A stretch of DNA of 64,000 nt, from positions 2,666,001 through 2,730,000 of the forward strand of contig NZ_JAPEMC010000001.1 of the NCBI RefSeq assembly GCF_026343115.1. The letters run 5' to 3'. The notes beneath the pieces were generated by a model. It worked only from the letters and a program-made list of their open reading frames with translations, was not told the origin of the DNA and did no database searches. Made by a program: the position numbers and the translations under genes. Origin of the DNA: Streptomyces sp. NBC_00102. GTDB taxonomy: Bacteria; Actinomycetota; Actinomycetes; Streptomycetales; Streptomycetaceae. This document shows positions 1,982 through 11,135 of this stretch, in pieces (positions within the stretch are counted from its first letter, which is position 1; every line of letters begins with the position of its first letter).

Positions 1982-2893
1982 ATGGCCAGGACCCGATCCC
2001 GTTACGCCCCCGACCGGGGTCTGACCACGCGCATGGTGTCGACCATGTTCTTCATCGGCCTGTTGTACGTGGTCCTGGTCGGGGTACTGCTGGCCGTGCT
2101 GCCCGGCTCGTGGGCGGTGATCCTGATCATCACCGGCGGGCTGTTCGTCGTGCAGTTCTGGTTCAGCGACCGGATCGCCGCGTACGGGATGGGCGCCCGC
2201 GAGGTCACCCCCGAGGAGGCGCCCGAGCTGCACGGGGCGATCGACCGGATCTGCGCCCTGGCGGACATGAAGAAACCCCGGGTGGCCATCGCGCAGAGTG
2301 ACGTACCGAACGCGTTCGCCACCGGCCGGAACGAGAAATCCGCCCTGGTCTGCGCCACCACCGGACTGCTGCGAAGACTGGAGCCCGAGGAACTGGAGGG
2401 CGTCCTCGCCCACGAGATGTCGCACGTCGCCCACCGGGACGTGGCGGTGATGACCATCGCGTCGTTCCTGGGCGTGCTGGCGGGGATCATCACCCGGGTG
2501 GCCCTGTGGGGAGGCTTCGCCCGCAACAGCCGGGGGAACGACCCGGCGGGCATCATCGTCATGCTGATCCCGCTGATCAGCGCGGTCGTCTACGCGCTCA
2601 GCTTCCTGCTCACCCGGCTTCTCTCCCGCTACCGCGAGCTCTCCGCCGACCGCACCGCCGCCCTGCTCACCGGCCGCCCCTCGGCGCTCGCCTCCGCGCT
2701 GACGAAGGTCAGCGGGCAGATGGCGCGCATACCCACGGAGGACTTGCGGAAGGCTGAGCCGTACAACGCCTTCTACTTCGTCCCCGCGTTCTCCTCGAAG
2801 GAGAGCTTCAGCCGGCTGATCTCCTCGCACCCGACCCTGGAACAGCGACTCGACCAGCTGGCCCGCATCTCCGCCGACCTGTCCCGCCCCTGA
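1982..2893 (+). CDS. htpX: zinc metalloprotease HtpX
   Basis: M48-family membrane protease of about 303 residues that degrades misfolded membrane proteins. Two membrane helices at about 19-62 precede the catalytic zinc site HEMSH (His144, Glu145, His148); Glu219 in RELSADRTAA is the likely third ligand. Two further hydrophobic segments lie at about 155-175 and 190-212. I chose ATG 1982, which has GGAGG five bases upstream and begins with the family's usual N-terminus; an in-frame ATG at 1952, with AGGAG, is a possible alternative adding ten residues. PspAB follows 40 bp downstream, so the pair likely belongs to the envelope-stress response. Confidence 0.93.
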   Translation: MARTRSRYAPDRGLTTRMVSTMFFIGLLYVVLVGVLLAVLPGSWAVILIITGGLFVVQFWFSDRIAAYGMGAREVTPEEAPELHGAIDRICALADMKKPRVAIAQSDVPNAFATGRNEKSALVCATTGLLRRLEPEELEGVLAHEMSHVAHRDVAVMTIASFLGVLAGIITRVALWGGFARNSRGNDPAGIIVMLIPLISAVVYALSFLLTRLLSRYRELSADRTAALLTGRPSALASALTKVSGQMARIPTEDLRKAEPYNAFYFVPAFSSKESFSRLISSHPTLEQRLDQLARISADLSRP

Positions 2894-2933
2894 ACGACCG
2901 CCCCGCCCCGCACGTCCCGGAGGAGCCCTCACC

Positions 2934-3518
2934 GTGGGTCTGTTCGACGCGATTCTCGGCCGGAGCAAGCCGGTCCGTCCCGATCTGGACCAGCTCTTCG
3001 CCGTACCGTCCGCCGCCCTGACCCTCCAGGCCGCCACCGGCTTCACCCCGTCCGGGCTGGGCTCGGTCTGCTTCGCGGGGGTGGAGGGCGCGAACTTCGC
3101 GCGCCTCCAGGACGACGTACGGGAGCTGCTGGATGCCGATACGGACCGGGGCGGGGTGCCGGTGGAGTTCAGCCAGGACGCGTACGGCTACACCTGGCTG
3201 CTCGCCCAGCAGCCGCCGGACGATCCGGCGGCCCTGGTCAACGACCTGCACGCGGTGAACACGCTGCTCCAGGACGGCGGCTTCGGCCCGCACCTGCTCT
3301 GCTCGCTGATCGGCTTCCGCGACCCGGAGGGCCGCTCGCTGGCGCTGGTGTACCTGTACAAGCGCGGCACCTTCTACCCGTTCGCCCCGGCTCCCGGTGG
3401 CGCGGAGAAGCGGGACAACGGCCTGGAGCTCCAGGTCCGCGCCGCACTCGGGGACGACCTGCGGGTGGAGAAGGAGCTGGCCCGGTGGTTCCCGGTGTGG
3501 GGCGCGCCGGGCCTGTGA
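2934..3518 (+). CDS. pspAB: PspA-associated protein PspAB
   Basis: 194-residue soluble protein beginning MGLFDAILGRSKPVRPDLDQLFA, the signature start of the actinobacterial PspAB family. It starts with GTG behind GGAGGAG. Members accompany phage-shock protein A systems, and in Streptomyces the gene commonly follows htpX, as here. No catalytic motif is visible; the biochemical role is unknown. It probably forms an operon with htpX. Confidence 0.85.
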   Translation: MGLFDAILGRSKPVRPDLDQLFAVPSAALTLQAATGFTPSGLGSVCFAGVEGANFARLQDDVRELLDADTDRGGVPVEFSQDAYGYTWLLAQQPPDDPAALVNDLHAVNTLLQDGGFGPHLLCSLIGFRDPEGRSLALVYLYKRGTFYPFAPAPGGAEKRDNGLELQVRAALGDDLRVEKELARWFPVWGAPGL

Positions 3519-5336: not shown

Positions 5337-6470
5337 TCAGCTCCAGGAGAGTTGCTGACCGTCCTCACTCAGGTGCAACGTCATACGTTCAGCCGCCGGC
5401 CGTCCGTCCTTGACCCAACGCAGCACCTGTTGGGAGATCGCGTCCCACACCCGCTGTCGGCCACCCTGCCGTACGAGCCAGCGCCCGCCCTCTTCGTACA
5501 GCAGGGCCCAGGACTCTCCCTTCACGTCCACGAACAAGGACTCGGCATGCCCATCGCGGTCCAGTCCGATCCGCTGGACGCCGGGGACCGCGAACTGGGC
5601 TACGAAGCGCGGGGTCCACTCCTCCAGCGCATCCGCGCCGAGGCGGGCCTCTTCGGTCTCTCCAGCTCCTGTCGCGGGCAGCAACCCCAGTGGGGGAGCC
5701 TGATGCGGCCGGGCGAGCATGAACGACACCTCTCCGCCGAGGACCGGCCCACTCGCGGTGCCGTCGTGCGCAACGGTCAGACGAACCAGCTCGGAGGCTC
5801 CCATCCAGCCACCCACCGTGGCCAGAATCTCTCCGCCGGACTTGGTCTGCGAGATCCAGGCACGAGGGACGTGGTGCACACCGCAGGTGGCGATGATCCG
5901 GTCGTAGGGGCCCGCACCGGCGAAGCCTTCGAGTCCGTCTCCGACGACCAGCTCGGGGTGGAAGCCGAGACCGGCGAGTGCCACCCCCGCCCTGGCCGAG
6001 ACGTCGGGGTCGACCTCGATCGAGGTCACGTTCTCCGGGCCGAACGCGCGGGCCATCAGCGCCGTGGAATACCCCGTGCCCGTGCCGATTTCGAGAACCC
6101 TGCCGCCTCGGGGCAGCCCGATCTCCTCCAACATCCGGACGACCAGACTGGGCAGTGTGGAGGAGGACGTCGGACGCTGCGTGATGCGGCCGTCGACTTC
6201 ACGCGGAACGATCGCACCGGCCAGTTGCGTAACCAGCGTGTCGTCCTCGTAGACGCGGCGCAGGCTGTCCTCGCCGTCCTGAAATCGAGGCCGATACCAG
6301 CCGTCGCCCTCGTGCTCGAACCAGCCGTGCACCAGAAACGCCTCTCTCGGCACGGACATGAGGGCGGCTTCCCAGACGGGGCTGTGCAGCACCCCGGCCC
6401 TGGTCAGGTCCTGTGCGAGGCCGGCACGGAGGCCCTCGGAGAGAAGGTTGTCGTCAGGCTCCACGGTCAT
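5337..6470 (-). CDS. PCMT-like methyltransferase of an ATP-grasp RiPP system
   Basis: 377 residues. SAM-binding motif I is VLEIGTGTG (about 125-133), preceded by [16 protein letters not shown] as in protein-L-isoaspartate methyltransferases. Sequence and length match the methyltransferases paired with ATP-grasp peptide maturases (TgmC type), which methylate modified peptide side chains. I chose ATG 6470, whose first bases overlap the ATP-grasp remnant by 17 bp; the open frame continues to 6662 without family similarity. The ligase next door is truncated and I found no precursor gene, so this enzyme is probably an orphan. Confidence 0.85.
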
Positions 6471-6657
6471 GGCCTTCCTGCAGCAGATCAGCGATGGCGC
6501 GGGTGATGGGGAGCCCGGTTTCGTGCTCCAGCCAGGCCCACTGGCCGTTGGGGTTGCACTCCAGGAACCACCATCCGCCATCTGTTGACACGGCAAAGTC
6601 GAAAGCCCCGAAATCGAGGCCGAATGCCCCGAGGAAGCGCAGGAGGCCACGCCGCAT
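6454..6657 (-). pseudogene. C-terminal remnant of ATP-grasp RiPP ligase
   Basis: About 67 residues containing [27 protein letters not shown] and the end ETGLP---AIADLL. This is the metal/ATP-binding C-terminus of TgmB-like ATP-grasp ligases, normally about 320 residues. The rest is missing: upstream on the same strand the frame becomes unrelated, and another open frame (about 6670-6904) shows no ATP-grasp features I recognise. The deletion leaves the 3' end still overlapping the methyltransferase start. Confidence 0.75.
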
Positions 6658-6893
6658 CGCACACCCGGGCGAACAAGCCGCGGAGTATGGACGAACCATC
6701 ACTCTTCCACGCTTCCAACTCCCCCTCCGCCCAATTGGACAACGAGGTGGGCCCACCCTGGGACTCATGCAGAACCAAATGGCGAGGCGGCCCCTGATGG
6801 GTGCTCAACCGCCCGCGTCCCGTGATCAATTCGCAATGGATTCCCGTCTCTGCCGAGACCCATTCGGGTAACGCGCGATTAGGCTCGACGCTC

Positions 6894-8099
6894 ATGTCCG
6901 ACACCGCGCCCGCTCACGGCAGTTCCGCTCGTCCCGCCGCGATTCCGGCCTCCATCGACCGTACGGAGGACCGTCCCGTCTACGTGATCGGGGGCGGGCC
7001 CGGGGGGCTCGCGGCGGCCGCCGCGCTGCGGGCGCAGGGGGTACGGGTCGTGGTGCTGGAGAAGGCGGCGGAGGTCGGCGCCTCCTGGCGCGGCCACTAC
7101 GACCGGCTCCACCTGCACACCACCCGGCGCTGGTCGGCGCTGCCGGGGCTGAAGATGCCCCGGAAGTTCGGGCGTTGGGTGTCGCGGGACGACGTGGTGC
7201 GGTACCTGGAGAAGTACGTCGAGTTCCACGAGCTGGAAGTGATCACCGGCGTCGAGGTGACCCGTGTCGACCGGGCGCCGGACGGGGCCGGCTGGGTGCT
7301 CTCGGCGACCGGCGGGCGGGTGCTGACGGGACGCGCGGTCGTCGTCGCGACGGGCTTCAACCACACGCCCCACATACCCGATTGGCCCGGCCGAGAGGCG
7401 TGGGACGGGGAGCTGGTGCACGCGGCGCGGTACCGCGACCCGAAGCCGTACGCGGGCCGGAGCGTGCTCGTCGCGGGGATCGGGAACACCGGGGCGGAGA
7501 TCGCGGTGGACCTGGTGGAGGGCGGGGCCTCGGAGGTGCGGATCGCGGTGCGTACGGTCCCGCACATCGTGCGGCGGTCGACGGCCGGGTGGCCCGCGCA
7601 GGCGACGGGCATCCTGGTGCGGCGGCTGCCGGTGTGGCTGGTCGACCGGGCGGGCGCCCTGATGGCGCGGGCCGCGGTGCCGGACCTCGCGGCGCAGGGG
7701 CTGCCGCGCCCGGACACCGGGCTGTACTCGCGGGTGAAGGACGGGGCGATCCCGGTGCAGGACGTGGGGCTGATCGACGCGGTGAAGGCGGGGCGGGTGC
7801 GGCCGGTGGCGGCCATCGCCTCGTTCGAGGGCGCGGAGGTGGTGCTGACCGACGGGACGCGGCTGACGCCGGACGCGGTGGTCGCGGCGACGGGTTACCG
7901 CCGGGCGCTGGAGGGGCTCGTCGGGCACCTCGGGGTGCTGGACGGGCGGGGGCGGCCGGTGGTGCACGGGGCGAGGTCCCCGCGCGAGGCGCCGGGGCTG
8001 TACTTCACCGGGTTCTCCAACCCGATCAGCGGAATGTTCCGCGAGATGGCGCTGGACGCGCGACGAATCGCACAGCGGATCGCCCGTTCGCCACGCTGA
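6894..8099 (+). CDS. FAD-dependent flavin-type monooxygenase/oxidoreductase
   Basis: 401 residues. FAD-binding Rossmann motif GGGPGGLAAA is at about 33-42, a second nucleotide-binding motif (GIGNTGAEIA) lies mid-protein, and ATG motifs (VVATGFNHTP, VAATGYRRAL) follow, as in flavin-containing and Baeyer-Villiger-like monooxygenases. It likely oxygenates a small substrate with NADPH; the substrate is not readable. ATG 6894 gives the usual N-terminus. The last 74 bp overlap the end of the convergent NB-ARC gene. Confidence 0.88.
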   Translation: MSDTAPAHGSSARPAAIPASIDRTEDRPVYVIGGGPGGLAAAAALRAQGVRVVVLEKAAEVGASWRGHYDRLHLHTTRRWSALPGLKMPRKFGRWVSRDDVVRYLEKYVEFHELEVITGVEVTRVDRAPDGAGWVLSATGGRVLTGRAVVVATGFNHTPHIPDWPGREAWDGELVHAARYRDPKPYAGRSVLVAGIGNTGAEIAVDLVEGGASEVRIAVRTVPHIVRRSTAGWPAQATGILVRRLPVWLVDRAGALMARAAVPDLAAQGLPRPDTGLYSRVKDGAIPVQDVGLIDAVKAGRVRPVAAIASFEGAEVVLTDGTRLTPDAVVAATGYRRALEGLVGHLGVLDGRGRPVVHGARSPREAPGLYFTGFSNPISGMFREMALDARRIAQRIARSPR

Positions 8100-10731
8100 T
8101 GGCGTGGACCGTCGCGACGACGGCGCTCGTCCCGGCGAGCTCCTCCCACGCCTTCACGGTCCGGGAGTCAGCGGTGCCGAGGTCGCGCGCGCAGTCGGTG
8201 AACACCCGCTCCAGCAGAGCGATCCCCCGGGCCGGCGATCCTGTCACGAAGTGCGAGGCCGCGACTTGGGTCCGGGCCAGCAGGGTGTGCGGGTCGTACG
8301 GGCCGAGGACCCGGGCACAGTCGGCGGCGAGCCGGCGGTACTGACCGAGCGCCGTTCGCGCCTCCCCCGCGAGCAGCAGACTCTGGGCGAAGTGGCGTCT
8401 GCTCATGAGGGTCTCAAGGTGGTCCTTCCCCAAGACCCGCTCCAGGCGGGCGAGATTGTCCACGTGGAGCGTGCGCGCCCGCTCCCCCTGCCCGGCCTCG
8501 GCGCAGGCCGCCGCCAGGAACTGGCGGGAACGCAAGGCCTCGATGTGGTCCTCGCCGTAGAGCCGGCAACGCTCGGCCAGGTCCTTCTCGAAGAGAGGCA
8601 AGGCCCTGCGCGGGTCACCCGCCTCCCTGTACGTGATGGCGAGTTTGTATCGCGCGAGCAGCGCCTGCGGATGGTCCGGCCCGAGATGGTGCGCCGCGTC
8701 GAGGTTCTGCCGGAACAGGACGGCGGCGCGCTCCTGATCACCGGCGAGCAGGTGGACTTCCGCGAGGTGGCAGCGGGCCACCAGGGTCGCGGGGTGCCGC
8801 TCTCCGTGAACGCGCAGGTGCTCGTCCAGGTTGAGGCGGAGTGTCTCGATCGCTCGGGCCGACTGTCCGGCCGACTCGAGGGCGTGGCCGAGGGCGTCGC
8901 GGGCGGCCAGGGTCTCGGGATGGTCCTCCCCCCGCACGCGGAGCAGGTCGTCGAGCACCCGGCCGTGCATCACGAGCGCCCTGTCGATGTCCCCCCGCCC
9001 CTCGTGGACGTGCGCGAGTCCGGATCGGATGGCCAGGGCGAGCTGGTCCTCTTCACCCTCGGCCCGGATCACGTCGGCGAGTACCCGTTCGTAGAGCGTC
9101 TCCGCCCGGTCCAAGTCCCCGGCCTTGTACGCCGACGTCGCCAGGTTGGCCCGGAGGATGCGGGTGTTCGTGTCATCGCCGCCCACGACACGACGGGTGC
9201 CGGCCAGGAGCGCCTCGATGAGCTCCTCCGCCTGCTCCGTTTCTCCCAGCCCCACGAGGACTTCGACCAGTTCGCTCCGGCAGATCAGTACCGCCTGGGC
9301 GTCGTCCCCCAAGGCGGCGACCAGTCCGTCCAGCGCCCGGCGGTAGTGGTCGGCGGCCGGCTCCAGGACGATCTGCTCCTTCAGCAATCGCGCCGCCCAG
9401 CTCAGCAGGCGGGCCGTCGCTTCGGAGTCGTCCTCGGGCGCGGTGTGCCGGGCCAGCGCCTCGACGTGCACGAGGAGCGACCGCCCCAGTGGCCAGAGGT
9501 CCGGCCGGTCCGCGTCGGGAACGGTTCTGAGCAGGCCCTCGGTCGCCCGCTCCCGCGCCGCCGCCACCGCGTCCGCCGCGCGGTGCGGGTCGTCCGGGTC
9601 GGAGGTCCGCGCGAGGGCCTGCACCAGGCGGTGGACGGAGAGGGTGCCGTCCGCTCCGGCAGTGATCATGCTGTGGGCGACCAGGCGGCCGATCGCCTTG
9701 GCGAGGACGGGAGGCGGTGCGAGGTCGTCCAGCAGGTCGCGGGTGATGCGGTCGGGGGCGTACCAGGCGAGGGTGCGCAGGACGTCTCCGGGGAGCGGGG
9801 TGTCGGCGAGGCGGTCCAGGGTGATGCGCCAGACGCGGGCCACCGTGCGGTCCGCGTCGGTGGTCTCCGCGCCGGTCGCGTACGTCTCGGCGGGCCAGGA
9901 GCGCAGCATGGCGAGGTAGGCGCGCGGGGTGGTGCCGTTCTCGTGGCAGTACGCGGCGGCCTGCTCGACCGCGAGCGCCAGGTGGCCGAGCTCCTCGCAC
10001 ACCTCGGCGGCCCCGTCGGTGTCGCGGGGCCCGGTCTGCGTGAGGACCCGGCAGAACAGCTCGACGGACTCGGCGGGGGCGAAGACGCCGAGCCGGACGG
10101 TGGTGGCGGTCAGGTGGTGCCAGCCGGTGGCGAGGCGGGTGGTGACCAGGACCCGGCCGCCGCCGCCGAGCCGGTCGAGCAACGGGCGTACGTCGTCGGG
10201 GAGGTTGACGTTGTCGAGTACGAGCAGCCAGTCGTCGTGGGCGGCGAGCCAGGCGAGGGCGCGTTCGCGCTGGAGCTCCTGCGGGAGTCCGGTCAGTCCC
10301 GGCTGGAGGGCGCGGGCGAGTCCGGCGAGGCCCGCCTCGACCCCGGCGGGGCTGTCGGCGCCGATCCACCAGCGGAGCCGGGCCGTGCAGCGCCTGGCCG
10401 CCCAGTGTGCGGCGAGGGCGGACTTGCCGACCCCGCCGAGGCCGCTCACCGCCCGCAGCACCACGCCGCCGGGCGCTTCGAAAGCGGTGTCCAGCGCGTC
10501 GAGTTCGGCGGAGCGGCCGACGAAGAGGGCGCCGCGCGGCAGGTTCGAGAGCCCGCCGGCCGCCGCGTCCGAGGGGATGGGGCCGTACGCCTCGGCCGGT
10601 GGCAGGGTGGCGTTCTCCACGTGCAGGGCGACGGAGTTGAGGATGTCCCGCCCGGCCGCGTTGGATCCCGCGCGGGCGGTGACGGGCGGCGCCTGCGGGG
10701 TGTCCGGGCCGGTCGGCGGCTTGCGTTTCAC
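8026..10731 (-). CDS. NB-ARC/TPR NLR-like STAND ATPase with N-terminal SNAAGRDI motif
   Basis: 901 residues. Residues 21-30 are AGSNAAGRDI, a short glycine-rich motif followed by hydrophobic residues. The NB-ARC module has VGRSAELD (71-78), Walker A GLGGVGKSA (97-105), Walker B LLVLDN (169-174), VTTR (196-199) and GHLAL (249-253). From about 430 to 870 come TPR-type repeats (for example GDLDRAETLYERVL, GDQERAAVLFRQNL), expected to sense a ligand. GTG 10731 overlaps the stop of the membrane-protein gene (GTGA), so the two are co-translated. Proteins of this build oligomerise on activation and trigger an effector; the partner carries the same SNAA motif. Target and trigger are unknown. Confidence 0.9.
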   Translation of the reverse strand: MKRKPPTGPDTPQAPPVTARAGSNAAGRDILNSVALHVENATLPPAEAYGPIPSDAAAGGLSNLPRGALFVGRSAELDALDTAFEAPGGVVLRAVSGLGGVGKSALAAHWAARRCTARLRWWIGADSPAGVEAGLAGLARALQPGLTGLPQELQRERALAWLAAHDDWLLVLDNVNLPDDVRPLLDRLGGGGRVLVTTRLATGWHHLTATTVRLGVFAPAESVELFCRVLTQTGPRDTDGAAEVCEELGHLALAVEQAAAYCHENGTTPRAYLAMLRSWPAETYATGAETTDADRTVARVWRITLDRLADTPLPGDVLRTLAWYAPDRITRDLLDDLAPPPVLAKAIGRLVAHSMITAGADGTLSVHRLVQALARTSDPDDPHRAADAVAAARERATEGLLRTVPDADRPDLWPLGRSLLVHVEALARHTAPEDDSEATARLLSWAARLLKEQIVLEPAADHYRRALDGLVAALGDDAQAVLICRSELVEVLVGLGETEQAEELIEALLAGTRRVVGGDDTNTRILRANLATSAYKAGDLDRAETLYERVLADVIRAEGEEDQLALAIRSGLAHVHEGRGDIDRALVMHGRVLDDLLRVRGEDHPETLAARDALGHALESAGQSARAIETLRLNLDEHLRVHGERHPATLVARCHLAEVHLLAGDQERAAVLFRQNLDAAHHLGPDHPQALLARYKLAITYREAGDPRRALPLFEKDLAERCRLYGEDHIEALRSRQFLAAACAEAGQGERARTLHVDNLARLERVLGKDHLETLMSRRHFAQSLLLAGEARTALGQYRRLAADCARVLGPYDPHTLLARTQVAASHFVTGSPARGIALLERVFTDCARDLGTADSRTVKAWEELAGTSAVVATVHAISVANGRSAVRFVARPAPSRGTFR

Positions 10732-11135
10732 GAGCCGTGGCGGGCGGTCGAGCCGTCGATGTCGCCGCCGGCCGCGTTCGAACCGCCGGTCGCGGTGATG
10801 CCCGGGGCCTCCGCCCCCTCTGCGGGAGTGGGGCCGCCCGTCGCTGTGTCGTGTGCCGAGGCGGAACGGATGCTGCCGCGTGCCGCGTTGGAGCCCTCGG
10901 CGGCCCGTACGGGCTCGGGGGCGGGTACGGGCGCGGTGGGCGTGCCCGCGCGGAGCTGCCGGAAGGCCACCGCCAGCGCGACGGCGCCCACCACCGAACC
11001 GACCACCCCCGCGATCTGGCTCGACCGCTCCAGGTCCGCCGCCGTCACCCAGACCAGCAGCCCCGCCGCCACCACCGCACCGGCCCCGGCCAGCACCCAC
11101 CAGGTCGTCCTGCCCACTCCGCGCGTCCCCGTCAT
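10728..11135 (-). CDS. two-helix membrane protein with paired SNAA-G-I motifs
   Basis: 135 residues. Two membrane helices (about 12-30 and 40-58) are followed by a cytoplasmic-type tail with two copies of a motif, GSNAARGSI (81-89) and GSNAAGGDI (118-126). The same motif begins the coupled NB-ARC protein (GSNAAGRDI). Shared short motifs between an NLR-like ATPase and a neighbouring effector are the hallmark of bacterial amyloid signalling pairs; a membrane effector would fit. The motif assignment is my inference by resemblance. It is upstream in the operon and overlaps by 4 bp. Confidence 0.8.
   Translation of the reverse strand: MTGTRGVGRTTWWVLAGAGAVVAAGLLVWVTAADLERSSQIAGVVGSVVGAVALAVAFRQLRAGTPTAPVPAPEPVRAAEGSNAARGSIRSASAHDTATGGPTPAEGAEAPGITATGGSNAAGGDIDGSTARHGS

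Follow-up and report, generated by a model that had tools for sequence, protein, structure and literature searches.

A shared motif co-diversifies between an NLR-like ATPase and a small membrane hairpin protein in Streptomyces, a candidate amyloid signalosome

Why would a large nucleotide-binding receptor and the very small membrane protein encoded beside it carry the same short peptide motif, one at its N terminus and the other in its tail? This question is raised by a gene pair in the 8.6-Mb genome of Streptomyces sp. NBC_00102, located in a stretch of 64,000 nucleotides (contig NZ_JAPEMC010000001.1, positions 2,666,001 to 2,730,000) that we call the window and whose numbering we use throughout. 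A sequence-only reading of the window had proposed that the two genes overlap by GTGA and that they signal through matching amyloid motifs. Both open reading frames (ORFs) were found on the minus strand at the positions given by that reading, with the effector TGA at 10728-10730 and the NLR GTG at 10729-10731. The motif occurs twice in the effector tail, as GSNAARGSI (residues 81-89) and GSNAAGGDI (residues 118-126), and once near the start of the NLR, as GSNAAGRDI (residues 22-30).

10728..11135, minus strand: membrane effector gene, 135 amino acids; two-helix hairpin, proline-rich linkers and two tail motif repeats
8026..10731, minus strand: NLR-like STAND ATPase gene, 901 amino acids; GTG start overlapping the effector stop
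10842..10910, minus strand: tail motif repeat 1, residues 76-98, around the first core; 3.35 bits per column; AlphaFold strands at 76-78, 83-85 and 93-96
10731..10802, minus strand: tail motif repeat 2, residues 112-135, around the second core; 3.60 bits per column; AlphaFold strands at 113-115, 120-122 and 130-133
10642..10668, minus strand: NLR N-terminal motif, in a stretch (residues 1-39) predicted to be disordered (pLDDT below 50)

Could the motif be a chance word in alanine- and glycine-rich linkers? BLASTP of the effector against the NLR aligned the motif stretch at E 1e-5 (17 of 32 residues identical), confirming that the two proteins share it, and their Smith-Waterman score was 78, compared with 35.3 ± 6.8 when the NLR N terminus was shuffled 5,000 times (maximum 72). 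The motif is not merely a recent DNA copy, because the copies differ at synonymous sites (GGC TCC, GGT TCG and GGA TCC for Gly-Ser), and we rejected a copied DNA repeat as its source on the same grounds. The point in favor of chance is that GSNAA alone is not rare: a DNA pattern for it, restricted to TCN serine codons, has 10 matches in the genome and its reversed control has 13. Yet 3 of the 10 fall within 241 bp at this pair, and such clustering is rare. A 24-base pattern for GSNAAGRD matched five times in 199 genomes of the genus (reversed control, two); three of these matches encode GSNAAGRD, each time in this NLR, and the other two encode GRNAAGRD and GTNAAGRD. Moreover, in an alignment of effector homologs (38 at E 0.01 or better), the tail repeats are the best-conserved of the regions compared, exceeding the hairpin (3.07 bits per column) and the linkers (2.05-2.06). 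These results, like the pairing permutations and the Mantel test described below, contradict the chance explanation, and we give it almost no credence.

Does the motif also match between partners at other loci? The sequence-only reading had proposed a profile search of NB-ARC genes and their neighbors as a check. Over 5,543 ORFs of the effector loci, a motif profile built from effector tails alone scored at least 9 bits in 15 ATPase partners, and the best other ORF reached 8.7 bits, leaving aside the effector's own frame-shifted repeat in two loci (L015 and L062; loci are numbered with the prefix L). The motif is shared as proposed, but SNAA-G-(D/S)I is not a fixed signature: it belongs, as a single subtype, to a wider family of motifs that diverge from one another. 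Partners tend to agree in subtype. GSNAA occurs with GSNAA, GSVAAGGDV with GAIAARGDI (L020), GERSVAAGGDIGSASTGD with GERSVAAGRDIGWVHTGD (L045), and GGDANGAALG with GGDAAGAALG (L053), while GAIVA is present in both partners at L106, L110, and L118 and M.GNA.G in both at L113 and L120. In another taxonomic family, GGRANTG occurs with GGVAVTG (L087).

We measured this agreement by aligning tails with the N termini of their own and of mismatched partners. In set A, 36 pairs built by hand with anchor strings picked by eye, the mean score was 67.3 for own partners vs 43.7 for mismatched ones (z 10.6; 0 of 20,000 permutations). When each of the 22 hairpin clusters formed at 60% identity was represented by a single pair, the median z was 9.0; clustering at 45% identity and below leaves three clusters and one, too few for a pairing test. 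Set B was automatic, a rule having found a P-loop ORF in 14 of 19 new loci (all except L109, L111, L112, L115, and L119), and these 14 pairs gave 68.0 vs 47.0 (z 5.3; 0 of 20,000 permutations). The combined 49 pairs, all from related actinobacteria, omit L103, a probable duplicate of L016, and include L036 with its tail cut to 62 residues; they gave z 13.0 (0 of 20,000 permutations). With shuffling confined to single-linkage ATPase clusters (45% identity, 42 pairs), z was 7.2 (0 of 20,000). Tail similarity and N-terminus similarity correlate at 0.82, with a partial Mantel r of 0.66 once the identities of hairpins and ATPases had been removed (0 of 5,000 permutations; 46 pairs, leaving out L013, whose partner has no P-loop, and L043 and L059, which have the looser P-loop form APAWAGK). 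For L030, L043, and L059, the partner protein has no domain named by Pfam. The matched motif thus covaries between partners: tail and N terminus co-diversify in a pair-specific manner.

At a finer scale the agreement is less complete. Because related pairs share subtypes, only 9 of the 49 rows have the own partner as the single best match, and in weak pairs it ranks well down its row of 36 (23rd for L088, 13th for L034, and 11th for L020). In all 26 related pairs the third motif residue is of the same class, polar or hydrophobic, in effector and partner, counting L117 (N in the effector, K in the NLR) as polar in both and without L013; because all 26 agree, one label served for both partners in the contrast. 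Only two independent changes of this residue are supported on the ATPase tree, or three on the hairpin tree, too few for significance, and therefore the pairing tests carry the case. A crude TG feature agrees in only 32 of 49 pairs, and an IVA feature agrees in L106, L110, and L118 and disagrees in L023 and L108.

Are the two genes conserved together? Among 199 genomes of the genus, 41 carry the effector (E 1e-3), at 47 places. The counts are 17 of 200 for genomes of the taxonomic family (E 1e-12) and, using a diverse effector profile of 27 members (A2), 9 of 396 for those of the phylum (E 1e-4). By classes assigned by eye, 27 of the 47 places have an adjoining P-loop ATPase gene whose N terminus resembles the effector tail, which supports the co-conservation supposed by the sequence-only reading. 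The ATPase gene lies downstream as in the window, upstream (L093 and L096-L098), or divergent (L036). At one further place (L042) the N terminus of the adjoining ATPase was left out of the comparison, at six places a single reading frame encodes both the effector hairpin and an ATPase domain, three (L062, L068, and L101) have a neighbor lacking a P-loop whose N terminus resembles the effector tail, and ten are without a resolved partner (L022, L031, L054, L055, L065, L066, L094, L095, L099, and L100). A further genome collection yielded eight effector loci: L009-L012 and L014 adjoin a P-loop ATPase with GSNAAGRD or GANAAGRD, L016 has a P-loop ATPase neighbor with GSNAAGRDQ, L013 has a neighboring ORF with GANAAGRDI and no P-loop, and L015 is a broken effector locus.

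The effector was also matched in four plasmid records. Two of these plasmids were examined, both mobilisable and linear, and each encodes an effector (GSNAAGGSA, GSNAAGGDI) together with an ATPase (GANAAGRDL); in one, an overlap of 4 bases between the two genes is annotated. A tblastn search of plasmids with one diverged effector gave no match. We rejected a conserved neighborhood around the pair: five neighbor genes from the window had no tblastn match at 1e-20 in the effector loci, most of which include only about 1.5 kb of flank. In the window, the effector gene is preceded on its own strand by an MFS transporter gene, which ends 63 bases before it. The effector and ATPase genes behave as a cassette. 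Thus, the motif is not scattered at random through unrelated linkers and the genes recur as a pair, the two points on which the sequence-only reading could have failed here.

Some effector loci have other kinds of neighbor. L068 encodes a hairpin with the tail INLQSGNDLTIGDDNKF followed by an ORF of 361 amino acids that has no P-loop and carries MQAGRDITIG near its start (2014-2340 and 2325-3407, plus strand); from its sequence this appears to be a similar pair in which the partner is not an NLR and the motif looks RHIM-like. At L101 (173-1571, plus strand) a hairpin effector lies next to a protein with no P-loop, one hydrophobic stretch, and the N-terminal motif GERSVAVGASAHAIITGDN. At L054 (1038-2165, minus strand) a hairpin protein with ANTG-type tail repeats adjoins a P-loop ATPase that looks MoxR-like.

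What happens to the motif when the two partners are one protein? Seven genomes encode the hairpin N-terminal to an ATPase domain in a single frame (L069, L056, L061, L064, L067, L063, and L092; the L063 frame is short, 239 residues). At L061 (1903-5175, plus strand) the fusion runs on into WD40 repeats, with a NACHT match just under the cut-off; this hairpin-NACHT-WD40 arrangement resembles fungal NACHT-WD40 receptors and differs from them in having its own membrane hairpin. The motif profile had no match in any of the seven fused frames, which is the pattern expected if the motif replaces the covalent link. Fused proteins would also be the starting point if the shared motif were a functionless relic left by fission of a once fused protein. 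However, the motif is undetectable in the fused forms, and where the genes are separate its conservation exceeds that of the membrane helices and its changes in one gene are paralleled in the other; we consider a relic highly improbable.

What kind of protein is the ATPase? Two domains follow its N-terminal motif:

9607..10524, minus strand: NB-ARC-type nucleotide-binding region, residues 70-375; P-loop GLGGVGKS at 97-104
8086..9576, minus strand: TPR superhelix, presumed sensor, residues 386-882; TPR_12 at 5e-37 and TPR_10 at 7e-27; alternating helices in the model

Pfam AAA_16 and NB-ARC match it below their cut-offs (NB-ARC, 13.5 vs 23.5 bits), the nucleotide-binding region has profile matches to AfsR and Roq1, and Foldseek retrieved the STAND structure 6mfv and Apaf-1. 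It is a P-loop STAND ATPase with C-terminal repeats, and by that definition an NLR. NF040586 (FxSxx_TPR) matches it above the curated cut-off (360.1 vs 300 bits), which raises the alternative that the NLR serves an FxSxx-COOH peptide-modification system and that the small protein is an accessory membrane protein. The peptide-modification context behind the name was not found, no FxSxx model or maturation gene being detected among the eight neighbor ORFs scanned within about 5 kb of the pair. The NF040586 name is shared by many homologs that differ in their N termini, and an FxSxx role would leave both the hairpin-ATPase fusions and the motif matching unexplained. We regard it as very unlikely. 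Two NB-ARC/TPR homologs (P0095 and P0131) carry SGNATATHGG or SGNATASHGG in the N terminus, resembling effectors with ANTG tails, and these N termini suggest that related ATPases exchange entire motif subtypes.

The effector outside its tail consists of a short helical hairpin:

11040..11114, minus strand: membrane helix 1, residues 8-32; AlphaFold helix; Kyte-Doolittle peak 2.13 (19-residue window from residue 14)
10950..11024, minus strand: membrane helix 2, residues 38-62; AlphaFold helix; glycine-zipper-like positions G46 and G50

The hairpin consensus in A2 is DLDxADQxASVxGAVxGLAGL, and glycine occupies the position of residue 46 in 25 of the 27 members and that of residue 50 in 19. We take this pattern in helix 2 to be glycine-zipper-like. 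In the tail, AlphaFold places strands in the same order at equivalent places in both repeats, and the model suggests a two-rung beta-solenoid. Foldseek gave three matches, all non-significant, two of them the prions HET-s and HELLF; when the effector family profile was searched against solved structures, it matched just a photosystem peptide (E 0.39) and showed no similarity to HET-s or HELLF.

Has the effector been described already? Pfam and NCBIfam gave no convincing match for the family (best E among the 27 members, 5e-4 and 1e-4). YadA_head of Pfam matches two of the 27 members at 5e-4 and three other models weakly match single members; we take these as composition or beta-roll-like resemblance. 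PspM (Rv2743c) membership was rejected, since the window effector scored 22.1 bits against a cut-off of 80 (NCBIfam) and 16.9 against 27.7 (Pfam); one of the 27 members matches PspM at E 1e-4, far under the cut-off. SLATT membership was likewise rejected, with no SLATT match at E 0.01 among the 27 members; the SLATT models are part of Pfam. The PADLOC models matched neither the window effector nor the NLR (0 families), the precomputed Pfam domains include none in the 64 proteins recovered with A2, among the matches listed, and we found no paper on the hairpin effector among the top-ranked entries of the open-licence literature.

How does the pair relate to known amyloid signaling systems? Dyrka et al. 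reportedly described in 2020 BASS motifs with Bell-domain effectors. In the fungal prion signaling systems HET-s/NWD2 and HELLF, the effector tail has two repeats and the NLR has one copy. The window pair has this arrangement too, and similar strands are predicted for each repeat; it differs from HET-s and HELLF in its effector domain and in the lack of detected sequence similarity, and the fold matches are non-significant. According to one review, ten BASS motif families are common to NLR N termini and Bell-domain effectors, or less often CHAT or TIR effectors, mainly in actinobacteria and cyanobacteria (PMC7889193). The window pair resembles those systems in its adjacent or overlapping genes, its motif at the NLR N terminus and effector C terminus, its membrane-directed effector, its filamentous actinobacterial host, and its use of a single or repeated motif. 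The geometry that the sequence-only reading had recognized, with a two-helix membrane protein as effector, holds. Its suggestion that the combination is new holds only in part: the wider class, a bacterial NLR with a small membrane-active effector and a shared terminal amyloid motif, is already described as BASS/Bell in that review (PMC7889193), and the hairpin effector is at most a variant of it. The apparent difference lies in the effector domain, a two-helix hairpin of some 55 residues whose second helix is glycine-zipper-like; it showed no similarity to one Bell-like protein of the same genome (hhalign against the effector family profile, probability 0.1%). One published BASS3 effector construct comprises residues 70-124, and its domain may be short too. 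The best reading is that the pair is a bacterial amyloid NLR signalosome of the BASS kind, with an effector hairpin that has no convincing library match; part of it may already be catalogued. SLATT effectors resemble the effector here in being small proteins with two transmembrane helices, predicted to form pores and to act in conflict systems with NTPases; they are described as responsive to nucleotide signals instead of a shared tail motif (PMC7159879).

The Bell-like protein lies about 74 kb away in the same genome (L082). It is helical and has the tail HARINQAGRDQHITER, and its neighbor is an NB-ARC/TPR protein that carries GRVYQATGDQHITEHHHY close to the N terminus; we presume it to be Bell-like from a description in a review.

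L082:3345-3785 and ORF ending at L082:5965, plus strand: second matched pair in the same genome, Bell-like and NB-ARC/TPR

How might the two proteins of the window work together? What the sequences themselves establish is the pairing, the matching, the conservation, and the fusions. We think it probable, on balance, that the two proteins form a two-gene signalosome that senses, templates in an amyloid-like manner, and permeabilises a membrane, probably in defence. The STAND ATPase would sense something through its TPR superhelix, and nucleotide exchange would lead to oligomerisation, as homology suggests. Oligomerisation would gather many copies of the normally disordered N-terminal motif, which could then fold as stacked, amyloid-like beta-solenoid rungs and template the two homologous repeats of the effector tail. 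The effector hairpins would be brought together, and their glycine-zipper-like helices may assemble in the membrane and permeabilise it. As a result, the compartment would be stopped or killed, most plausibly as an anti-phage or other anti-invader defence, a role that we infer from the kind of proteins involved.

The main rival to this signalosome is that the motif is a specific docking element. Acting by beta-strand addition or as a small folded solenoid, it would bring the effector to the NLR by stoichiometric recruitment at the membrane and form no self-propagating amyloid. Docking explains most of the same data, including co-diversification and conservation, the solenoid predicted for the tail could be a closed fold, and the motif of the window clade is weakly hydrophobic. 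However, two effector repeats with one NLR copy is the stoichiometry of HET-s/NWD2. In addition, two studies report fibrils or aggregates of the BASS3 motif, which comes from systems laid out in the same way (PMC7885112, PMC8086366). Docking alone appears unlikely to us, although we take it more seriously than any other alternative.

Why would one hairpin be combined with so many motifs? A wider idea, which we advance tentatively and would not yet call probable, is that many unrelated sensors (NB-ARC/TPR, NACHT, and other P-loop ATPases, and some proteins lacking a P-loop) act through a single conserved hairpin as their shared membrane executioner. Private, fast-diverging solenoid codes would let many circuits coexist in one mycelium without cross-firing, and fusion and code would be interchangeable forms of wiring. 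With the signalosome, bacterial prion-like immune signaling would gain a second family of membrane effectors, a very small one that lacks a convincing match in the libraries scanned. Moreover, natural matched pairs, near mismatches, and fusions make the specificity of amyloid templating testable by motif swapping.

Elsewhere in the window, at 5337-6768 on the minus strand, an ATP-grasp peptide maturase system methyltransferase matches TIGR04188 above the cut-off. The ORF adjoining it matches an ATP-grasp maturase model only over its final quarter (TIGR04187, positions 244-312 of 312), and this region is apparently a decayed graspetide-type cluster.
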